Positions 5,771 to 63,151 of a DNA stretch of 64,000 nt are shown one piece after another; position 1 is the stretch's first letter, and the number at the start of each line of letters is the position of its first letter. This stretch comes from Corynebacterium fournieri (GTDB lineage Bacteria > Actinomycetota > Actinomycetes > Mycobacteriales > Mycobacteriaceae). Where the stretch lies: the NCBI RefSeq assembly GCF_030408775.1, contig NZ_CP047210.1, positions 1,612,001 through 1,676,000 on the forward strand. Direction: 5' to 3'. Made by a program: the position numbers and the translations under genes. A model generated the notes under the pieces. The model had not been told where the DNA came from. It made no database searches and saw nothing but the letters and a program-made list of their open reading frames with translations.

Positions 5771-7056
5771 TCGAGCACAACCCGCGCATGGACGCCGAAG
5801 CGAACACCTGTCTTCGCTTCGGCGTTTTGTTGTTGGCCGCGGGCGCATCCGGCTACCGGGTCATTCGCGCGGTGAAGCGCTGCGCGCGCTCGGTCGGCTT
5901 CGACAACGCTGACGTCATCGTCGGCTTCAACACGATCAGCTGCACGTTTCACCGCGGGGAGCAGTTCCGCACCGCCGTGTCGGACGTGCCACTGCCGGGC
6001 GTGAACGCCTCGCGCATCGAGGCGTTGGAGACCGCGGCGCACTCACTGCTGCAGAGCTACCGCACGCCCGAGGTGATCAGCGCCGCGCTGGACGAAATTG
6101 AGCGCATCCCTTCTCCCCGCTGGGGCGCTCGCCTCTCGACGTTGGCCGCAGGCCTCGCCTGCGCCGGGTTCGCCGTCCTGAACCAGTTCGGCTGGGCCAC
6201 CGCCGCGATGGTGTGCCTGGCCGCGATGCTGGGGCAGCTCGTGCGCAGCCTCCTGCACAAGGCGCACTTCAACCTCATCGGCATCACCATGGCGGCGGCG
6301 TTTGTCGCCTCCGCGGCGTTTTTGGCGCTCGCGCGCGTGCTGCCTCTCGACGGGGTGGTCTCCCCCGGTTTCGTCGCCGCCGTCCTCTTTCTCATCCCGG
6401 GCTTTCCCCTGTTCACCTCATTTGTGGACCTGGCCCGATTCGACTTCACCGCCGGCATCCCGCGGCTGTTTTTCGCCTTGGAGATCATCGTGGTGATCAT
6501 GCTGACGGTCTCAGTGGTGGCGATGCTCTCCGGCACCCCCGAGGCGCAGCCGCAGCCGGTGCCCAAATCCGCCGAGTTCTTGGCTGCGAGCGCGCTGGCG
6601 AGTTTTGTCAGTGTCGGCTGCTTCGCGCTGTTGTTCAACTCCTCCAAGCGCATGGCGCTGATCGCCGCCACACTCGGGATGGCGGCGAACGCGGTGCGCC
6701 TGACGCTGCTGGCCTACGGGTCAGTCTCCTACCTGGCGGCGTTCGCAGCGGCGCTGCTCATCGGTGTTGCTGGCGGTCTCCTCGGCCGCGTGGCCAAGGT
6801 CCCGCGCACCACCGTGACCATCCCGGCGGCGGTGGTGATGATCCCCGGGCCGGTGATCTACGCCGCGGTGCACAACTTCGCGGTCGGCGACATCGTCAAC
6901 GCGCTGTCGAAATTCACAGAGGTGTCCTTCGTCGTGCTGTTCATCGCTGGCGGGCTGTCGGTGGCGCGAATGATCACCGACCCGACCTGGGCGTTTTTCC
7001 GCTACATCGACTTCGACCACGAGTTGGTCGGCGAGGAACGGCCGATCAACAACTAA
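5767..7056 (+). CDS. threonine/serine exporter family protein (ThrE-like)
   Basis: The 429-residue protein has a cytoplasmic N-terminal part containing LRFGVLLLAAGASGYRVIRA, characteristic of the ThrE N-terminal domain, followed by about ten hydrophobic segments covering both ThrE membrane halves. ThrE of C. glutamicum exports threonine and serine by proton antiport. The GTG start overlaps the preceding stop (GTGA), so translation is coupled to the DUF4191 gene. It is somewhat shorter than C. glutamicum ThrE and could be a paralogue. Its end overlaps the convergent RDD gene by four bases. Confidence 0.85.
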   Translation: MIEHNPRMDAEANTCLRFGVLLLAAGASGYRVIRAVKRCARSVGFDNADVIVGFNTISCTFHRGEQFRTAVSDVPLPGVNASRIEALETAAHSLLQSYRTPEVISAALDEIERIPSPRWGARLSTLAAGLACAGFAVLNQFGWATAAMVCLAAMLGQLVRSLLHKAHFNLIGITMAAAFVASAAFLALARVLPLDGVVSPGFVAAVLFLIPGFPLFTSFVDLARFDFTAGIPRLFFALEIIVVIMLTVSVVAMLSGTPEAQPQPVPKSAEFLAASALASFVSVGCFALLFNSSKRMALIAATLGMAANAVRLTLLAYGSVSYLAAFAAALLIGVAGGLLGRVAKVPRTTVTIPAAVVMIPGPVIYAAVHNFAVGDIVNALSKFTEVSFVVLFIAGGLSVARMITDPTWAFFRYIDFDHELVGEERPINN

Positions 7057-49841: not shown

Positions 49842-50885
49842 CTAGGTGGTTTTGGCTATGTTTCGTTGTTTAGCCAGGGTTGTGTATTGCCCGTCTGGTC
49901 CGGTGGTGAGTCTGCCAAAGACGAACCAGTCCAGATAATCGTCAAGATACTTCATAAACTCCTCGGTTGTGTGCTTTTCGGGGCGAATTCCACTGGCGTG
50001 AAGTTCGCGCTTGATGGTGCCGAAGAACCCTTCTACTCGGGCGTTGTCGCCGCTGTTGCCGAGCCGGGATAGGGACGGCACCATCAACCAGGCGTTATCG
50101 CACGGGTTCTCCTCTGTGCAATGTGTGCATTGTTGCCTGTCGTGACTGATATCAGTCAGTCGGTCAACCCAATCGATGTGGCGGTAGTGCCAGCCACGGT
50201 CGGTGTGCAGTTCGGGGCGTTGTCCTGGTTGTATTTGCTCGAGCCCAGCTTCAAGCATCGTGTTGGTCAGCAACGCCGCTGGTCGCGTTGCGCAGGTGTA
50301 CGCGATGGGCATGTTGTCGTGGAAGTCGATCAGCGGGCTAAAAAAGACTTTGCCGTCAGCGCATTGAAACGCGGTGATGTCGGTGCCGAGTCTTTGATTT
50401 GGCGCATCGGCATAGAAATCGTGTACCAGATCCTTCCTGCCCGCCTGCCTGCGACGATGCGCCTGCGAACGATATCTTTGCGAGACGTGGGTGCCATTTT
50501 TTGTGACAGTGTCGATGTCTCCAACCAGACATCGATTTGCTGGGCGATGCGCAGTTTCGCCCTTGTACGAGCTGTAGCGCTTCGTGCGTTTCATCTTCGG
50601 CTGCAGGTGTTCTTCGCGCATGATCGTGCGAATCGATTTTTCCCCCAGCGACAGACCGTTCGCTTTGCACACTTCACTCACGCGGCGGTAGCCGTAGACC
50701 ATGCGGTTGCCCTCACAGGCGGCGGTAACCATTGCCTTGGCCTGGCCTTTTCGGTCGACTAGAGGGTGTTTTAACCGCTTGCATGCCGACTTGTAGGTGT
50801 TGTACTTCAATCCGTAGTAGGCGCAGCAACGCGTTACTTGGTATCCGACGTCCCGGAGTCGTCTGACAGCCGTAGCGACGACCAC
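49842..50885 (-). CDS. IS3-family OrfB transposase (copy 2)
   Basis: Same 347-residue protein as in copy 1, with intact D169, D229 and E285. Confidence 0.93.
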   Translation of the reverse strand: MVVATAVRRLRDVGYQVTRCCAYYGLKYNTYKSACKRLKHPLVDRKGQAKAMVTAACEGNRMVYGYRRVSEVCKANGLSLGEKSIRTIMREEHLQPKMKRTKRYSSYKGETAHRPANRCLVGDIDTVTKNGTHVSQRYRSQAHRRRQAGRKDLVHDFYADAPNQRLGTDITAFQCADGKVFFSPLIDFHDNMPIAYTCATRPAALLTNTMLEAGLEQIQPGQRPELHTDRGWHYRHIDWVDRLTDISHDRQQCTHCTEENPCDNAWLMVPSLSRLGNSGDNARVEGFFGTIKRELHASGIRPEKHTTEEFMKYLDDYLDWFVFGRLTTGPDGQYTTLAKQRNIAKTT

Positions 50886-51520
50886 GCTGTCGAGCGTCTC
50901 CGGGTTTGCGCTTTTCCCTCAGATTCCATCACCGCCTCAAACAGCGCTTTATCCGCCAGACGCATAAACCGCTCTTGACGCAACAGGTCTTTGAGGGTCT
51001 CAACGTCATCCGGCAACGCTGCCTCATCAAACGGAGCTGTTGGCTGCTCATGGTTGCGTGAATATGCACTCTCATCGCGCGGGGCGCGTTGTGATTGACG
51101 TTGTGTTTCGGCCTTCTTGCGCTTGCGTTTTTGGGCTTCGTGGTGTTCTTTCACACGCGCCAGTGTCGCCTGTTCTATCTCCTGCGGTGTCATCCCACGC
51201 CGCGAACCCGCATCCGGAGCGAACTTGTGCGTCCACGCCGCCACGGAACTCGCAGCGACCCGAAAACGCCATCCAATCTCGCGGGTGGATGCCGACGTTG
51301 TCACATTCGCCCGAACGACCTCAGCAATCAACTCGGCAGAACGCCAACCTTTATCGACCCCGCTGCCATGACGGGCGTTGCGTGCCCATCCCGAAATTGA
51401 AGCGGTAGAAGGAACAGACCTACATTCCTCCCGAATCAACTGCGCACGAACCTGCGAAGCAGCAAGCCCCTGCCCCGAAAGCTCAACGGCACGCTGCCGT
51501 ACCTCCGGCGGATAACTCAT
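50834..51520 (-). CDS. IS3-family OrfA (copy 2)
   Basis: Same 228-residue protein as in copy 1. Slippery heptamer at 50912-50918 on the minus strand. Confidence 0.93.
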   Translation of the reverse strand: MSYPPEVRQRAVELSGQGLAASQVRAQLIREECRSVPSTASISGWARNARHGSGVDKGWRSAELIAEVVRANVTTSASTREIGWRFRVAASSVAAWTHKFAPDAGSRRGMTPQEIEQATLARVKEHHEAQKRKRKKAETQRQSQRAPRDESAYSRNHEQPTAPFDEAALPDDVETLKDLLRQERFMRLADKALFEAVMESEGKAQTRRRSTAWSSLRLSDDSGTSDTK

Positions 51521-54854: not shown

Positions 54855-55541
54855 ATGACAACACCGTCCCCCATCGAGAACACAACGATCATCCCGCCCA
54901 GTGAAGCCAAAGAATACCTAGCAAAGCGCGATATCGATGCAGACTGCCTTTCCACTGCCCTCACCGAGGGCCTCGCGCAGCGGCAGAACTGCGAGGTGTA
55001 CCACCCCGTGACTGCCCCTGGGTACTACCAGTGGTCCGAGACTAACTTCTCCATCCGAAAGTTCCATTGCGAAAGTAACAACTGGAAAATAGCGAACCCG
55101 GACAACCGCCCGCTCCTTGTCCACGTTGATAAGCAAACGAAGTTCGTCGCAGCCGCTGGCAACTCAGCTACCGGCCTCCGGGAAGCTGCACCAGGTTTGG
55201 CGCGAAGAAAAGGGGTTTCAACCATTCAATCTGTCAACGCGTCAAACCAGCTTCAGATAGGGCTGGGGCCCTTCACACCCGCGTCGCATACGCCTGACGC
55301 CCGCCACACTCCCCCGCCAGGTGAATGGCTGCTTCTGTACTTTTATGATGAGGAGCATGAAGAGCTCCGTAGCGAGTTCTCACGCCCAGCCTCAATTTCC
55401 GAGGACGGAGAAGTCGAGGCGTGGGACGTTAGAGTTCTGCTCAAACCGATTCATCCGGAATTCGCTATGGCCCAGCCAGACCTTTTCGGGACCGAGGACG
55501 ATGACATTGACTTCACAATCTCACGTGCAAGCGGAGACTAA
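54855..55541 (+). CDS. unknown protein paired with XRE/ImmA-IrrE gene
   Basis: A 228-residue soluble protein not assigned to a family. A short N-terminal helical part (SEAKEYLAKRDIDADCL) is followed by conserved-looking segments NCEVYHPVTAPGYYQWSET and PPPGEWLLLYFYDEEHEELR. A GGAAGGAG ribosome site precedes the ATG. Its last 41 bases overlap the XRE/ImmA gene, so the two form a coupled two-gene module. This arrangement fits a toxin-antitoxin or stress-response pair, but the role is an inference. Confidence 0.8.
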   Translation: MTTPSPIENTTIIPPSEAKEYLAKRDIDADCLSTALTEGLAQRQNCEVYHPVTAPGYYQWSETNFSIRKFHCESNNWKIANPDNRPLLVHVDKQTKFVAAAGNSATGLREAAPGLARRKGVSTIQSVNASNQLQIGLGPFTPASHTPDARHTPPPGEWLLLYFYDEEHEELRSEFSRPASISEDGEVEAWDVRVLLKPIHPEFAMAQPDLFGTEDDDIDFTISRASGD

Positions 55542-56637
55542 CTCCGCCCGTATCTCGCCGTCCCGTATTACTGTTGCGCGATTGCGCCGTGGCCTCACAA
55601 AAGCGGAGCTCGCCGCCAATCTCGGCATCGCTCCAGCAACGTTGTCTCGTTGGGAGAATGAGGGACCGCCACCTTCCCGCACCGAGTCCCTCATCGAGCA
55701 GCTCGAGGCTGCACTCGGGTTTACCGCAGGTTACTTGGTCTCCGAAGAGCTCGAAGTCCCCTCGACGGATTCCACCCTCTTTCGGGCTGGCAGCCGCGCA
55801 ACTCAACGCCAGAAGAGCGTTGCAGTCGCATCCGGGGCAAACGCCAGCGCACTTTTGGCCTGGCTTCGACGCAACTTCAACTTCCCAGAGCCTGACCTGC
55901 CTGACTTGTCCGGGCTTACGCCTTCGGAGGCAGCCCGCCATGCGCGCACGATCTGGCAGCTCGGCGACAGGCCAGTTCCAAACTCGGTCCAACTCGCCGA
56001 ATCCCTCGGCATCGCCGTCATGGGCCTGCCGCCCGCAGCCTCTGCGGTGGACGCGTTTTCCATGTGGGACGGCGAGCAACCGCTCATTTTCCTGGCCCGT
56101 CGCCGCACCCCCGAGGGCACCCGTTTCGACCTCGCGCACGAGTTGGGGCACCTGCTACTTCACAGTTCCGACGATCCACACAACGGAGCACGCGAGGAGG
56201 ACGAGGCGAACCAGTTCGCCGCTGACTTCCTCATCCCGCCCGGCATTGTTCACGCACACCTTCGCTCGCACGCGAGCTTCGACGACATCCTCCGGCTCAA
56301 GACCGCATTGAAGGTGTCAGCCATGGCCATGCTTCGCGCCGCTTACCACCACGGCAAACTCAGTGAGCGGGAATACCACTCCCACCTGACCGCCCTCTCC
56401 GCGCGCGGCTTCCGCACCGGCGAGCCCGGCAGCACACTGCAGTATGAACGCTCACGCATCTTCGATTACGTGCTTTCCCCCGATGGTGGCGCCAGCATTT
56501 CGAACATCGCCGCTGAAACAAAGCTCCCGCCACAAGACCTGCACGCGCTCATGCTCAGTACGCAACCTCACACGGTCTCGAGCGCTACCCGGACAACAAG
56601 CGCCCCGGCCCGCCCGGCGCTCCGCGTGGTGCGCTGA
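55501..56637 (+). CDS. XRE-type regulator fused to ImmA/IrrE metallopeptidase
   Basis: A 378-residue protein. Residues 22-80 form an XRE helix-turn-helix (LTKAELAANLGIAPATLSRW). The second half has a zinc-peptidase motif H213-E-L-G-H217 in FDLAHELGHLLLH and a downstream E in EDEANQFAADFLIP, as in ImmA/IrrE proteins that cleave repressors. Start ATG 55501 has GAGGACG upstream. The last 25 or so residues look out of frame: an adjacent frame continues past the stop with protein-like sequence. Confidence 0.87.
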   Translation: MTLTSQSHVQAETNSARISPSRITVARLRRGLTKAELAANLGIAPATLSRWENEGPPPSRTESLIEQLEAALGFTAGYLVSEELEVPSTDSTLFRAGSRATQRQKSVAVASGANASALLAWLRRNFNFPEPDLPDLSGLTPSEAARHARTIWQLGDRPVPNSVQLAESLGIAVMGLPPAASAVDAFSMWDGEQPLIFLARRRTPEGTRFDLAHELGHLLLHSSDDPHNGAREEDEANQFAADFLIPPGIVHAHLRSHASFDDILRLKTALKVSAMAMLRAAYHHGKLSEREYHSHLTALSARGFRTGEPGSTLQYERSRIFDYVLSPDGGASISNIAAETKLPPQDLHALMLSTQPHTVSSATRTTSAPARPALRVVR

Positions 56638-57881: not shown

Positions 57882-57954
57882 TCCTCCATAGCTCAGTTGG
57901 CAGAGCATTCGACTGTTAATCGAAGGGTCACTGGTTCGAGCCCAGTTGGAGGAG
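57882..57954 (+). tRNA. tRNA-Asn (anticodon GTT)
   Basis: TCCTCCA pairs with TGGAGGA in the acceptor stem; anticodon loop CTGTTAA gives anticodon GTT (asparagine); T-arm contains GGTTCGAGCCC. CCA not encoded. tRNA-Asn genes are frequent integration sites, but no intact integrase follows here. Confidence 0.95.
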
Positions 57955-58109
57955 CAAAAAGATGGAGCCCCGTGATCAGCACCAGCTGGCCACGGGGCAT
58001 TTTTCGTATCGCGGCAAGATAGCAGGAATAACGACAGCCCTCCTCGACGTTCCACCTGATGTTCCGGCAAAGGCCGAACGCACAGAGAACAACGACAAAG
58101 GAGCACAGC

Positions 58110-59205: not shown

Positions 59206-59576
59206 GACGCCGGCTGAACTTAAGGAACTCCAATCCGTTCTGGCAGAACCGCTCGACATCGACAACGTCAAGGCCGCAGACTACGACCTTGTCTTCTACC
59301 CCGGCGGGCATGCCCGATGGAAGAGCCCGCAGTCGACGAGACGTCCGCACGAATCCTCACCGAGCGGGCTTCTCCAACGACGAAGAGCGAGACGCCGGGC
59401 TCGCCGACAAGGCTCCCTGGCTGCTCAAGGACCGGCTCGTCGCCCTCGGCGCTAAATACGACAAGACGCCGGAGCCGTGGGCGTCCTACGTCACTGTCGA
59501 CGGCAACCTCTACACCGGGCAGAACCCGTCCTCGTCTCACGAGCTCGCGCAGTGCCTAGTCAAGGACCTGGCCTAA
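59206..59576 (+). pseudogene. DJ-1/PfpI family gene remnant, copy 1
   Basis: This stretch is a broken copy of the gene at 62457-62953. Relative to it there is a one-base loss near 59312 (GGGCATGCCCG against GGGCATGGCCCG) and a deletion of about 109 bases after GAGCGG at 59364-59369, removing the catalytic cysteine region. The end (DGNLYTGQNPSSS, then a stop at 59574) is preserved. The similarity extends about 110 bases beyond the stop. It lacks the N-terminal part too. Confidence 0.85.
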
Positions 59577-60323
59577 GGGATTTCACGCTGGGACCGGTCG
59601 GCGACACACTCCGCGCGGTTGTCGCCGGCACGGTGCCATCGGTGCGCAATTGCCTATCGACGACCACAGGTCCCCCGCACTCGTCAAGTCCCGTGAAGTG
59701 GTAAAGCCGTGTGTGCTTTCAGCTCGGTATGAGGTTCGGGGAGTTGGTCAGGAGATTAGCTGGTGGTGGTCGCCGTTATCACCTTCGTTTGGTACATGCG
59801 GTGTTTAGTGTGGTTCGAGTGCGGATAGCGACGCGAAGCCGTTTTACCGGTTCTAGTCGTCCTGCTGCCCGGCAAGAACTGGCCCGACAAGCAGGACAAT
59901 GGACTCCTGGTCTGGGAAGATGCCCCCCTGCATCGCCGCACCGGCGGATTTACGGTTTGACTGCTCTGAGGTTGTTCGACCACACCTGTGCCCACACTGG
60001 TTTCGGCGTTGCGGTAAACGCCACCCATAGCTTCCCGATCCGCGAAAATCAGATCCGTATTGATTTGGGGTCGACAGTCTCCAAAAATTAGGGCATTGAA
60101 GGATATCCGAGCCATGCTCTTGATTGTCAAGCTTTGCCAGATTCATCGAAAGCATTAGTAATAGCTGCGCCAGTATGTCACCATTAGCACTCGAGCGCCG
60201 AGAGCGAGCACTTAAGCATTATCGGGTGATTTCTACTTGACTACTCGCCCGTATTTGTCCAACCAAGCATCTTCAACCATGCAGGCACTTCGGGCGTGGC
60301 GAAAGCCGTAAGCTTCAGCTCCC
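59577..60323. other. no confident gene; left edge of AT-richer island
   Basis: 59625-59693 is repeated at 62995-63063 (shared GTGCGCAATTGCCTATCGACGA and flanks). From about 59700 the sequence loses similarity and becomes AT-richer; only short open frames without recognisable products or ribosome sites occur. Confidence 0.6.
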
Positions 60324-60767
60324 CTATCCCAATCCCCGCAAGGTATTCACCGGAAGCAGCACTGGCACAAGTGGAAGTTCGTTGGTCAAATCATGTATTT
60401 TCTGCCGCACGTAGGGAAACAGTGCCGGAGCAACGTACTCGTCAATAATCTCGCCCTTGCGGTCTGGATCGTGGATGAAAGATTCAGCTTGCTCCTCTGG
60501 TACAGAGAGATCTATTTCGTACCAGATCCCGATTTCACCAAGAACTCGCTCTTTTTCGCCATCGGCGAAAAGTTTAGTTTCCGCTTTAGCACGAACCCGC
60601 ACCCCACCTTCAATGAGTTTCCCTTGAAATTGACCAAGTTCAAACTGCACATGGACGCCTTCGTATGGCGTCTCATAGTTCAGAGCATCCGCATTCACGG
60701 CCACTAGGCGAATCTCGTTTACGACACACTCTTTCGCCACCTCGACGCTCTGCTCTTGTTCGCTCAC
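60324..60767 (-). CDS. SecB-like chaperone
   Basis: A 147-residue protein whose C-terminal part VAPALFPYVRQKIHDLT and VPVLLPVN matches the SecB core (E. coli LFPYARECITSMV...LAPVNFDAL); the N-terminal strands fit too. SecB keeps client proteins unfolded. Corynebacteria have no classical SecB, and actinobacterial SecB-like proteins such as Rv1957 serve toxin-antitoxin-chaperone modules. Its GTG start overlaps the stop of the helix-turn-helix gene (GTGA), placing it third in a three-gene operon. Confidence 0.82.
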   Translation of the reverse strand: MSEQEQSVEVAKECVVNEIRLVAVNADALNYETPYEGVHVQFELGQFQGKLIEGGVRVRAKAETKLFADGEKERVLGEIGIWYEIDLSVPEEQAESFIHDPDRKGEIIDEYVAPALFPYVRQKIHDLTNELPLVPVLLPVNTLRGLG

Positions 60768-61465
60768 AGCACAGAGCCTTTCCGGTTCACTTCAACCCTC
60801 CGATACCCTTCGGACTTCTTCACCACTGTACGTTTCGAAGAAAAAGGGGAACCCCAGTAGATTTCCATCCACTCACCGGGGCGTGGAGTATCCCCGGAAG
60901 ACCGCTGCCCCCGGACCGACTCCTCAAACATCACGCTCGCCCCGGCGCCTGCAAACGAAGCCCACTCTTCCGAGACCGGCTCGTGCTTCTCCACCAAAAA
61001 GGCGTCAATCTCTCGGACGAGCTCCGGCGTCGGAAGCTCAAGTCCCAAGTCAATTTTCGCCACTTCAGCAAGCCAGGTGTTCACCTCATATAAGCTCCAG
61101 ATCTTTTGTCGCCGCTCCCCTCTACCAATACACGCTTCTTCTTTTGGAAAGGCGTTGTCTGTATTCGCCACCCATTTCGTCACGGCTTGGCGCGTTACAC
61201 CAACAAGTTGCGCAATATCGGAGGTGTTCACCAAAAGCGGTTCAACTCTATCGACAATCAATGTGTCGCGTGTCTTGAGTATGTGCAGGATATCGGTTGC
61301 TTTGTGGAAGAGGTTCTCACTGTCCTCTTCGAGCACAATTTCCGCAATTACAACCCCGTTTGAGAGAGAAAAGGACACCTCAGGAACAGCTTCTTCGATG
61401 CCGTCAATTCGTTGATCATCGGAAAAATCGATTCCGTGAACCTGCAGTCTAACTACTGTTGCCAT
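60764..61465 (-). CDS. helix-turn-helix protein, putative antitoxin/regulator
   Basis: A 233-residue protein. The N-terminal part (1-75) is an acidic alpha/beta region; residues 80-133 form an AlpA/MerR-like winged helix (NTSDIAQLVGVTRQAVTKWV, then RRQKIWSLYEVNTWL). A C-terminal extension (about 195-233) holds an aromatic patch PGEWMEIYW and a basic end, which could be the chaperone-addiction segment expected in TAC antitoxins. Start ATG 61465 has AGGGG upstream; a palindrome lies 26-43 bases before it. Confidence 0.78.
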   Translation of the reverse strand: MATVVRLQVHGIDFSDDQRIDGIEEAVPEVSFSLSNGVVIAEIVLEEDSENLFHKATDILHILKTRDTLIVDRVEPLLVNTSDIAQLVGVTRQAVTKWVANTDNAFPKEEACIGRGERRQKIWSLYEVNTWLAEVAKIDLGLELPTPELVREIDAFLVEKHEPVSEEWASFAGAGASVMFEESVRGQRSSGDTPRPGEWMEIYWGSPFSSKRTVVKKSEGYRRVEVNRKGSVL

Positions 61466-61490
61466 CTTCATCCCCTCTCAAGGCCAGCGA

Positions 61491-61508
61491 GGTTGTCAAA
61501 TGACAACC
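61491..61508. promoter_or_regulatory. palindromic operator upstream of the helix-turn-helix gene
   Basis: GGTTGTCA-AA-TGACAACC is a perfect 8-bp inverted repeat in the 86-base gap between the first and second operon genes, well placed for autoregulation. Confidence 0.65.
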
Positions 61509-61551
61509 AGTAAAACAGTTTATTTGAGAACTAACAAAACCGCAGGATCTT

Positions 61552-62184
61552 TCACCCTTCCCCCTTCCGAACTTGCTTTTTCGCCCCGCGCAATCTGTCC
61601 CGCAGACCTTTGTAACGTTTCCACGCGTCATCAACCTCTGGATGTGGGGGCTTGTCCAGATATCGCGCCCGTAGTTCTTGCCGAGCGGATTCGAGTGGCC
61701 GCTCAGCACATTCACTGATCTGAGGCACATCCGCGGCCCCTGCATCAGATGCCCCGGCTTCACGTAAGAGCTCCCCCGCCTTCTCTTCGCATTCAATAGC
61801 ACCTTCGACAAAAGTATCTAGCTCGAGCTCGATCGCTTTTCCGAATAGCTGTTTAGCGCGAAGAAGCTCTTCAGCAGCCTTGATCAACCGTTCCGCTTTG
61901 TCCAAATACTCAAGAGCCTCCTGCAGACTCTCGCGGTGCGTGGAGGAATGCGAGCAGTGTCGAATAGCCCGATCAACTTCTTTGGCTTTTCTCGTCGGGT
62001 TCCGCGGAGTCGAGTCAATGCGCACGCGACATTCTCCCGTGGGACATATGAGCACAAAGCCCCCGTGACTCTCCTTAGGTTTCGCACTCCATCCGAGCGA
62101 TCTCGCTTTCTGCGCCTGCTCATTTAAGTCTTTCTGGGGATGGCGTGGCCATTGATCTCTCGGCCCGTAAACAGTGCTGGCCAC
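61552..62184 (-). CDS. HicA-like protein with helical C-terminal domain, putative toxin
   Basis: A 210-residue protein. Residues 10-80 (WPRHPQKDLNEQAQKARSLGW, then SHGGFVLICPTGECRV and STPRNP) follow the HicA-like double-stranded-RNA-binding fold with a histidine (H40) where HicA has its catalytic His. Residues 83-175 are long charged helices (coiled coil) not found in ordinary HicA. The start is the GTG at 62184, with GGAGG six bases upstream. First gene of the operon. Confidence 0.7.
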   Translation of the reverse strand: MASTVYGPRDQWPRHPQKDLNEQAQKARSLGWSAKPKESHGGFVLICPTGECRVRIDSTPRNPTRKAKEVDRAIRHCSHSSTHRESLQEALEYLDKAERLIKAAEELLRAKQLFGKAIELELDTFVEGAIECEEKAGELLREAGASDAGAADVPQISECAERPLESARQELRARYLDKPPHPEVDDAWKRYKGLRDRLRGAKKQVRKGEG

Positions 62185-62194
62185 TCCGCTCCTC

Positions 62195-62395
62195 CTAGTC
62201 GAATCTCTGGCAAATTCTACCATTGTCATTCTCGCAAGCACTTTCGGAATCCTGAGCTTCTAACGCCTTCGCCACCGCCAGGCCATTCCAACGCAACCCG
62301 ACGGTCCTGAACACCACCCGCCACGCCGGATCTAGCGCCACCTCCCCATGTACGACCCCACTCATCGATTGAGTGTCCTCCCGCCCAAGCGCCAC
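62195..62395 (-). CDS. short ORF upstream of the HicA-like gene
   Basis: A 66-residue frame ending 10 bases before the HicA-like start, beginning MALGREDTQSMSGVVHGEVA. Its middle (DPAWRVVFRTVGLRWNG) looks protein-like. No family or ribosome site recognised; it could be the remnant of a gene truncated when the island formed. Confidence 0.35.
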   Translation of the reverse strand: MALGREDTQSMSGVVHGEVALDPAWRVVFRTVGLRWNGLAVAKALEAQDSESACENDNGRICQRFD

Positions 62396-62456
62396 TTCTG
62401 CACCGCGATCACCAAATCGCCAGCCTCACTGTGCGCCGCGCCGTATCCTTCATCCG

Positions 62457-62953
62457 AAGCTGACACCCTGGCAGCGGTGAAAGCGGGGCTGGAAAAGCTT
62501 GAACCCGTATTGGCGAAGCCGCTCGACATTGACACTGTTAAGTTCGCAGACTACGACCTTGTCTTCTACCCCGGCGGGCATGGCCCGATGGAGGACCTCG
62601 CAGTCGACGAGACGTCCGCACGAATCCTCCCCGAGCGAATGGCGGAAAGCGCGCCCGTGGCTCTACTCTGCCACGCACCGGCCGCTGTCCTCGCGACAGA
62701 GAACGCGTCCGGCGCCACCCCATTCGCCGGCCGGACCACGACCGGATTCTCCAACGACGAAGAGCGAGACGCCGGGCTCGCCGACAAGGCGCCGTGGCTG
62801 CTCGAGGACCGGCTCGTCGCCCTCGGCGCTGTGTACGACAAGGCGCCGGAGCCGTGGGCCTCCTACGCCACTCTCGACGGCAACCTCTACACCGGACAGA
62901 ATCCGTCTTCCTCGCGCGAGCTCGCGCAGCGCCTGGTTAAGGACATGGCCTAA
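62457..62953 (+). pseudogene. DJ-1/PfpI (Hsp31-like) gene, 5'-truncated copy 2
   Basis: The region encodes the class I glutamine-amidotransferase-like core with VFYPGGHGPMEDL, the nucleophile cysteine in LLCHAPAAV and the end ITGQNP-like LYTGQNPSSS. Relatives of the Hsp31/YhbO type are about 225 residues and begin about 55 residues earlier; here the upstream part is unrelated sequence. A frame is open from 62348, so a truncated 201-residue protein could be made, but it would lack the first strands. Confidence 0.75.
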
Positions 62954-63151
62954 GTGCTTCTGCGCTAGAGCCAGCTGGAGATAGCCTGCGCGCGGGTATC
63001 GCCGACACGCTGGCATCGGTGCGCAATTGCCTATCGACGATCACAGGTACCCCGCACTCGTCACGCCACAACCAGCCCGGCCAGCAGCTCAAAACGCCGT
63101 CCGAAGCTAGACAACGCATTCGGCTAGTGAAGGTTGGCCGCGCACTTCCTA
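62954..63151. other. gene-free spacer with right copy of flanking repeat
   Basis: 62995-63063 matches 59625-59693. No gene recognised. Confidence 0.6.

Follow-up and report, generated by a model that had tools for sequence, protein, structure and literature searches.

According to the parts of the published articles available here, the antitoxins of known toxin-antitoxin-chaperone (TAC) systems have a C-terminal chaperone-addiction segment (ChAD) that imposes dependence on a SecB-like chaperone, and TACs with HigBA, MqsRA, and HicAB have already been described, including the HicAB-SecB TAC studied in Methylomonas methanica (Bordes 2016, PMC5105189). In CmdTAC, the chaperone is taken away by newly made phage capsid protein (PMC11618068), and in HigBAC by a tail protein of phage lambda (PMC11980606). 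Here, a window of 64,000 nucleotides from Corynebacterium fournieri was analyzed (contig NZ_CP047210.1, positions 1,612,001 to 1,676,000, from a genome of 2.39 Mb in one contig). Three of its genes, named A, B, and C, quite probably form a TAC module with a HicA-like pair at its core, in which A would be the toxin, B the helix-turn-helix (HTH) antitoxin, and C the chaperone that B would need. The A-B pair is most likely neither HigBA, MqsRA, nor classical HicAB.

The HigB-HigA-SecB TAC (Rv1955-Rv1956-Rv1957), as far as its sources describe it, shares with this locus the order of toxin, HTH antitoxin, and SecB-like chaperone as well as a C-terminal extension of the antitoxin, and Rv1957 was the best structural match of C. 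In contrast to that system, A is HicA-like and not RelE/HigB, and B has an extra N-terminal part and belongs to a different HTH family (PDC-M06B). The Methylomonas methanica TAC, in the portion of its description available, likewise combines a HicA-type toxin with a SecB-like chaperone in a three-gene operon, whereas the antitoxin of the window is not HicB and A belongs to the PDC-M06A family, with a helical tail of about 130 residues. CmdTAC (PD-T4-9) is also a three-gene TAC with a SecB-like chaperone, and C gives a weak match to its PADLOC model PD-T4-9_C; however, the toxin of CmdTAC is an ADP-ribosyltransferase, and its antitoxin is described, in the text available, as helices together with a long unstructured part.

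The adjacent A and B match both the PDC-M06A and the PDC-M06B model of PADLOC-DB 2.0.0. We take PDC to stand for phage defence candidate. Unlike the locus in the window, the PDC-M06 pairs of this analysis are mostly two-gene systems with an A of mostly 72-92 aa and no C in the locus DNA examined; the window adds C, an extension of B, and a tail on A. The name PDC-M06 was not found in the literature searched, which did not extend to bioRxiv. Among the HicA classes 1-14 of Gerdes 2024, which comprise HicA toxins of the double-stranded RNA-binding domain (dsRBD) type, class 6 is frequent in Actinomycetes and also carries a helical 'Shared Domain' at the C-terminus according to the part of the article available, whereas no class in its figure legend has an antitoxin of the M06B type; the word 'chaperone' is absent from its text. 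Among the matches listed in the TAC literature, no title or abstract opening described a non-HicB HicA-like TAC or a TAC of a Gordonia phage.

Gene layout and the SecB-like protein C

All three open reading frames (ORFs) are, by sequence comparison, coding beyond doubt, because relatives of A, B, and C keep sequence and order in another species; intact copies of A and C, 97-99% identical, are present in the protein database. A sequence-only reading of the window had described three minus-strand genes in tight order, the last two overlapping by GTGA, and the ORF coordinates bear this out (Table 1). The stop of B and the GTG start of C overlap at 60764-60767, and A and B are separated by 80 nt without overlap, with an 18-bp inverted repeat inside the spacer. 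The start of A is a GTG preceded by AGGAGG; a longer start at 62241, given by the ORF tool, is shared by one database relative (P0005) and not by P0004, P0006, or the Corynebacterium haemomassiliense locus L003. The start of B is perhaps the second ATG at 61465, as in the relative P0008. The G+C content is 52% in 60001-62000 versus 60-71% for most of the window. No promoter was found by a consensus scan, and terminators were at chance level.

Table 1. Features of the A-B-C locus and its flanks (window coordinates)
Feature	Position	Strand	Description and evidence
Gene A	61552-62184	minus	Candidate HicA-like toxin, 210 aa; ORF, PDC-M06A match, AlphaFold model, relatives
HicA-like domain of A, residues 14-83	61936-62145	minus	Predicted fold order, profile-profile match, invariant His40
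Helical tail of A, residues 81-209	61558-61944	minus	Four predicted helices to the protein end
18-bp inverted repeat GGTTGTCATTTGACAACC	61491-61508	minus	Candidate operator for B; 8-bp arms; 2/500 shuffles as good
Gene B	60764-61471	minus	Candidate DNA-binding antitoxin, 235 aa; PDC-M06B match, relatives
Helix-turn-helix part of B, residues 75-141	61049-61249	minus	Match to PDC-M06B, plus weak HTH matches
C-terminal extension of B, about residues 179-235	60767-60937	minus	Candidate chaperone-addiction segment; absent from chaperone-less 176-aa orthologues
Gene C	60324-60767	minus	SecB-like chaperone, 147 aa
Truncated DJ-1/PfpI gene copy	59232-59666	plus	One module flank; direct repeat, three pieces, 85-93% identical to 62502-63043
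DJ-1/PfpI gene copy	62502-63043	plus	Other module flank; repeat; Pfam DJ-1_PfpI E=6.5e-9 for ORF 62348-62950
3'-end gene remnant upstream of A	62265-62427	minus	BLASTN 80% identity to L002; 88% over 59 bp to L003

The model of C yielded 18 matches in the Protein Data Bank (PDB) at E<=0.001, all of which were SecB or Rv1957 chains; a SecB fold is thus predicted for C, as had been proposed for the third protein. The related protein P0003 reaches 18.9 bits for Pfam SecB (PF02556). The available part of PMC6377645 names Asp27 and Arg29 of Rv1957 as the residues that bind the tryptophan of the ChAD. These two residues correspond to a [DE]-x-R-L stretch (own numbering) in the C proteins of the window, L002 (C. 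gottingense), P0003, L028, and L034, and the same stretch reads D-V-R-F in those of the Gordonia phages Suerte and Blueberry.

The Pfam SecB family was matched in six of 242 genomes of the genus (L089-L094). In these six Corynebacterium loci, two of which are nearly identical, an HTH gene and a HigB-looking gene were seen by eye from the ORFs upstream of the SecB-like gene, which gives them the appearance of classical HigB-HigA-SecB TACs. A search based on C among 340 genomes of the class identified 11 with a match, including two M06 triplets (the window and L034). At the other nine loci, no A match was found at E<0.3 and there was one weak B match (L107, 0.013), where, as throughout, E-values from local hidden Markov model (HMM) runs refer to small sequence sets. 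In eight of these nine loci, C is preceded, by eye, by an HTH gene and this in turn by a RelE/HigB-looking gene; L111 gave no clear picture. The chaperone thus seems to be common to different toxin families, and the M06 pair would be a second kind in this class.

Candidate antitoxin B and candidate toxin A

Gene B matched PDC-M06B over residues 75-141 (PADLOC, E=1.3e-10), and together with weak HTH matches this agrees with the second protein having been read as a helix-turn-helix protein. The C-terminus of B, which had been proposed as the addiction segment, contains PGEWMEIYW at residues 198-206, and tryptophans 170, 201, and 206 lie in the extension region. The stretch after the conserved Trp133 counts 67-102 residues in all six C-bearing loci, whereas 21 of the 25 loci lacking C have 29-61 (Mann-Whitney p=0.003, the sequences not being independent). 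This count includes L031 and L041 and excludes weaker B matches that cover little beyond the HTH; a locus was counted as 'without C' if neither of two C profiles matched at E<=0.05 in its 3.2-12.5 kb of DNA. The close Corynebacterium relatives of B without chaperone are 163-187 aa long as ORFs. The proposal of an addiction segment is supported at the sequence level because the chaperone-less 176-aa Corynebacterium orthologues end about 57 residues before the B of the window.

Two further observations concern the C-terminus of B. The B relatives of L031-L033 continue for about 130 residues more at the C-terminal end, and the DNA examined at these loci contains no C match. A decayed extension behind the stop codon of chaperone-free B was also considered, and the frames past the stops in L003 and L004 gave nothing convincing, so that this idea was abandoned.

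Gene A matched PDC-M06A over residues 14-83 (PADLOC, E=6.5e-10), and its AlphaFold model, built from six sequences, had a pLDDT of 80.5. The predicted secondary structure includes a helix at residues 18-29, strands at 33-36, 43-46, and 53-56, and a helix at 63-75, and this helix-strand-strand-strand-helix succession is the order given for HicA in the available part of Gerdes 2024. A profile of 21 M06A domains was aligned with 15 HicA sequences from Actinobacteriota (30 loci, of which 27 were used, gave 16 ORFs, and the spurious L060 was removed), with a score of 25.4, a P of 1.6e-4, and an hhalign probability of 50.5%. The controls for this score (99 column shuffles and one reversal, n=100) had a mean of 9.0, a standard deviation of 1.9, and a maximum of 15.8, and the cross-checks of M06A versus HicB and B versus HicA scored 15.3 and 14.4, respectively. 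His40 is invariant in 10 of 10 aligned rows and meets the GSH-motif histidine, which is catalytic in HicA, in the local profile alignment. In addition, the PADLOC HicA-like model is reached by relatives of A, namely P0007 (0.005) and the A of L099 (0.0026). A is predicted to be remotely HicA-like. Of the earlier description of A as a HicA-like protein with a helical tail, the tail was recovered, and for residues 10-80, where the HicA fold was expected, the predicted order (residues 18-75) and a family profile scoring above all controls agree with it; this reading stands by prediction and is the most remote of the three protein readings. Neither Pfam, NCBIfam, nor PADLOC gave a RelE/HigB match for A at E<=1. 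The tail is present in four bacterial and plasmid triplets and absent from two phage ones.

The proposal of a TAC with a HicA-like toxin in place of HigB was retained for the candidate toxin, which resembles HicA by family profile and matches PDC-M06A and not RelE/HigB. Its novelty was not, because HicAB TACs are already known and putting HicA in the place of HigB would not by itself be a novelty. The architecture is nevertheless unusual in that the antitoxin is not HicB and the pair is PDC-M06.

Distribution and genomic context of the triplet

The co-occurrence of the three genes, on which the sequence-only reading depended, was found in other genomes. In C. gottingense (L002), A, B, and C share 57, 65, and 68% identity with those of the window. 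The same three genes, annotated as hypothetical proteins, are carried by the conjugative plasmid pA of Pseudarthrobacter defluvii, and the actinobacterial contig L034 (genome G522) has the triplet with a 4-nt B/C overlap. In the Gordonia phage Horus (L096), genes 53, 52, and 51 represent a remote A, B, and C between the immunity repressor and the integrase; the A of Horus has a profile match of 7e-4 (in a set of 14 proteins) and no PADLOC match. Similarly, genes 45 and 44 of the Gordonia phage Agueybana (L097) are B and C, gene 44 being annotated as shorter than its reading frame, and a candidate A is an unannotated ORF (L097 1425-1715; A profile 0.03, 48% identity to Horus 53) that begins where the immunity repressor gene ends. 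The B/C overlap is 4 nt in both phages. By sequence, four triplets are considered firm (window, L002, plasmid pA, and L034) and the two phage triplets probable.

The pair is found more widely. PDC-M06A was matched in eight of 198 genomes of a phylum sample, and the B profile in 109 of 345 genomes of a class sample, many of the listed matches covering the HTH part only. An A-like ORF lies upstream of B in 11 of the 13 loci outside the window (L030-L042) with at least half of the B profile covered, the one in L040 being short and doubtful (E=0.042). A-B pairs also occur on Vibrio and cyanobacterial plasmids and in the enterobacterial phages SSU5 and Cyrano. Within the order of G522, B was found in one of 13 genomes, namely G522 alone. 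Scans of IMG/VR with the three window proteins and with the C of the plasmid returned no relatives, and none were found for the window's A in the phage collection or for its C in plasmids.

Among phages, the C of Horus has relatives in 12 records of the phage collection (seven named Gordonia phages), annotated as hypothetical. C-like genes follow an HTH gene in four regions, those of Horus, Agueybana, Suerte (L101), and Blueberry (L102). An annotated immunity repressor is near the C-like gene in Horus, Agueybana, and Suerte, and an integrase in Horus, Suerte, and Blueberry. In Suerte and Blueberry, the toxin position is taken by a 176-aa gene with no Pfam or PADLOC match. It is possible that the C-like loci of Gordonia phages are unrecognised phage-borne TACs.

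The inverted repeat in the A-B spacer may serve as the operator of B. A repeat with perfect 9-bp arms, AGTTGTCAATTGACAACT, is found at the same A-B position in L002 and L003, and an inverted repeat with one mismatch to it occurs in L004, which has B without A. Related repeats are GTTGGCACTTGCCAAC in L028 and TGTTGGAGGGCGCCAACA in L034 (82/500 shuffles as good for L034). The repeat is absent from most distant A-B pairs.

Direct repeats of a DJ-1/PfpI gene lie on either side of the module in the window, and the module of C. gottingense lies between direct repeats of another gene (L002 1010-1309 and 4803-5102). Upstream of A in the window, in L002, and in L003 there is a fragment of the gene repeated in C. 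gottingense, reduced to a 59-bp piece in L003; we take this remnant, at 62265-62427 in the window, to derive from an ornithine-cyclodeaminase-like gene. A tRNA-Asn adjoins the A-B pair in C. haemomassiliense (L003 6686-6759), and the tRNA-Asn of the window (57882-57955) has no pair beside it. In Corynebacterium sp. MSK008 (L004), B alone is found at the tRNA-Asn site (6596-6669). Large ATPase-like genes were seen by eye near the tRNA-Asn site with the A-B pair or B, and this site is possibly a defence hotspot. Elsewhere in the window, a protein with HTH_3 and ImmA/IrrE (Peptidase_M78) domains is encoded at 55321-56637, about 4 kb from the module, and two ORFs at 49842-51520 resemble, by eye, an IS3-type transposase pair.

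Interpretation and significance

In the proposed mechanism, A would be an RNase-type toxin like the HicA toxins with a dsRBD, His40 being its likely catalytic residue, and B would bind A. The HTH of B would repress transcription at the A-B inverted repeat, such that B and C could be made apart from A. A tetramer of C would hold the extension of B, which would serve as the chaperone-addiction segment, and C would keep B folded and undegraded. Most likely, a freshly synthesised structural protein of a phage would then sequester C, by analogy with CmdTAC and HigBAC; with the loss of C, B would be lost and A would stop translation in the infected cell. We infer toxicity, neutralisation, addiction, and the phage trigger, and the module would probably act as an alarm against viruses.

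Several observations weigh against this reading. The model of C is of moderate quality (pLDDT 69.6), C is below the Pfam SecB cut-off (14.4 versus 26 bits) and was not picked up by the Pfam SecB search of the 242 genus genomes, and the Arg of the [DE]-x-R-L stretch is lost in the C proteins of Horus and Agueybana. The triplet is rare, with C in two of the 242 genus genomes and the M06 pair in two of the 11 class genomes with C. A long B occurs without C in L021 (73 residues after Trp133) and in L031-L033 (176-177, apparently another domain), and B does not have the LAA end of CmdA; this ending is found in Horus 52 and is missing from Agueybana 45 and from four bacterial and plasmid B proteins. 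For A, the hhalign probability for HicA goes no higher than the value given above, having been 26.5% before the HicA set was cleaned and 9.1% in global mode. No Pfam HicA match was found for A at E<=1, and a plain HicA profile HMM found several M06A proteins, with 1.4e-4 as the best E-value in a small set, and missed the A of the window. A PDB fold search with the A model gave helix-bundle matches to the tail, with no HicA row among the matches listed; because these tail matches filled the search, the HicA fold stays a prediction. The tail also does not track C, and a link between the two was rejected: the A proteins of L003 and L014 are tailed without C, and the phage ones are tailless with C.

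As an alternative, the locus may be a chaperone-gated toxin-antitoxin (TA) unit that holds on to its island, plasmid, or prophage by addiction and does not fight phages. A low-GC block between direct repeats, together with relatives on a conjugative plasmid and in temperate phages, would fit such a role; however, the pair is included in PADLOC, whose models cover known anti-phage systems as well as candidates, and characterised TACs are triggered by phage structural proteins, which bears on this module by analogy. This alternative is thought rather unlikely, if worth keeping in view.

It appears improbable that the locus is a standard HicAB-SecB TAC like that of Methylomonas, in which B would be a very diverged HicB. 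HicAB TACs exist (the available part of PMC5105189), A is HicA-like by profile, and the Cyrano pair was deposited as HicA and putative HicB. However, the N-terminal 80 residues of B scored 10.5 against a profile of HicB, whose domain is a partial RNase H (30 loci, 21 used, 20 stop-free sequences), over one aligned column, where 60 shuffles reach 11.8, and no Pfam HicB match was found for B at E<=1. From these comparisons, B is not HicB.

It is similarly improbable that the locus is no TA unit at all, with B as an excisionase- or AlpA-like regulator, A as its RNA- or DNA-binding partner, and C as a chaperone for another client. B does match the PHROG excisionase/transcriptional-regulator family 2620 (9.5e-7), but the SecB-like genes found in the genus sit in TAC-looking contexts, the extension of B goes with C, and the two-gene A-B layout with its inverted repeat is TA-like. 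A decaying, non-working remnant, to which the flanking gene fragments and the rarity of the triplet might point, is very improbable given three intact frames with conserved cores and the intact database copies of A and C.

The TAC reading can be extended, tentatively and with more doubt than confidence, to an unnamed M06-TAC family that would be a mobile alarm on corynebacterial islands, a conjugative plasmid, and temperate Gordonia phages. C would sense incoming phage structural proteins and release the addicted B, freeing a HicA-like RNase; the helical tail of the bacterial forms might add targeting or sensing, and the prophage copies beside the immunity repressor would provide superinfection defence.

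With the module of C. fournieri, the TAC repertoire would gain a pair that is neither HigBA, MqsRA, classical HicAB, nor CmdTA, and this addition would support the idea of a sensor unit, made of chaperone and addiction segment, that can be swapped onto different toxins. The Corynebacterium orthologues of B with and without extension and chaperone (235 versus 176 aa) offer a natural experiment on chaperone addiction within one antitoxin family. The copies adjoining the immunity repressor in Horus and Agueybana point to temperate phages as possible carriers of TACs against rivals.
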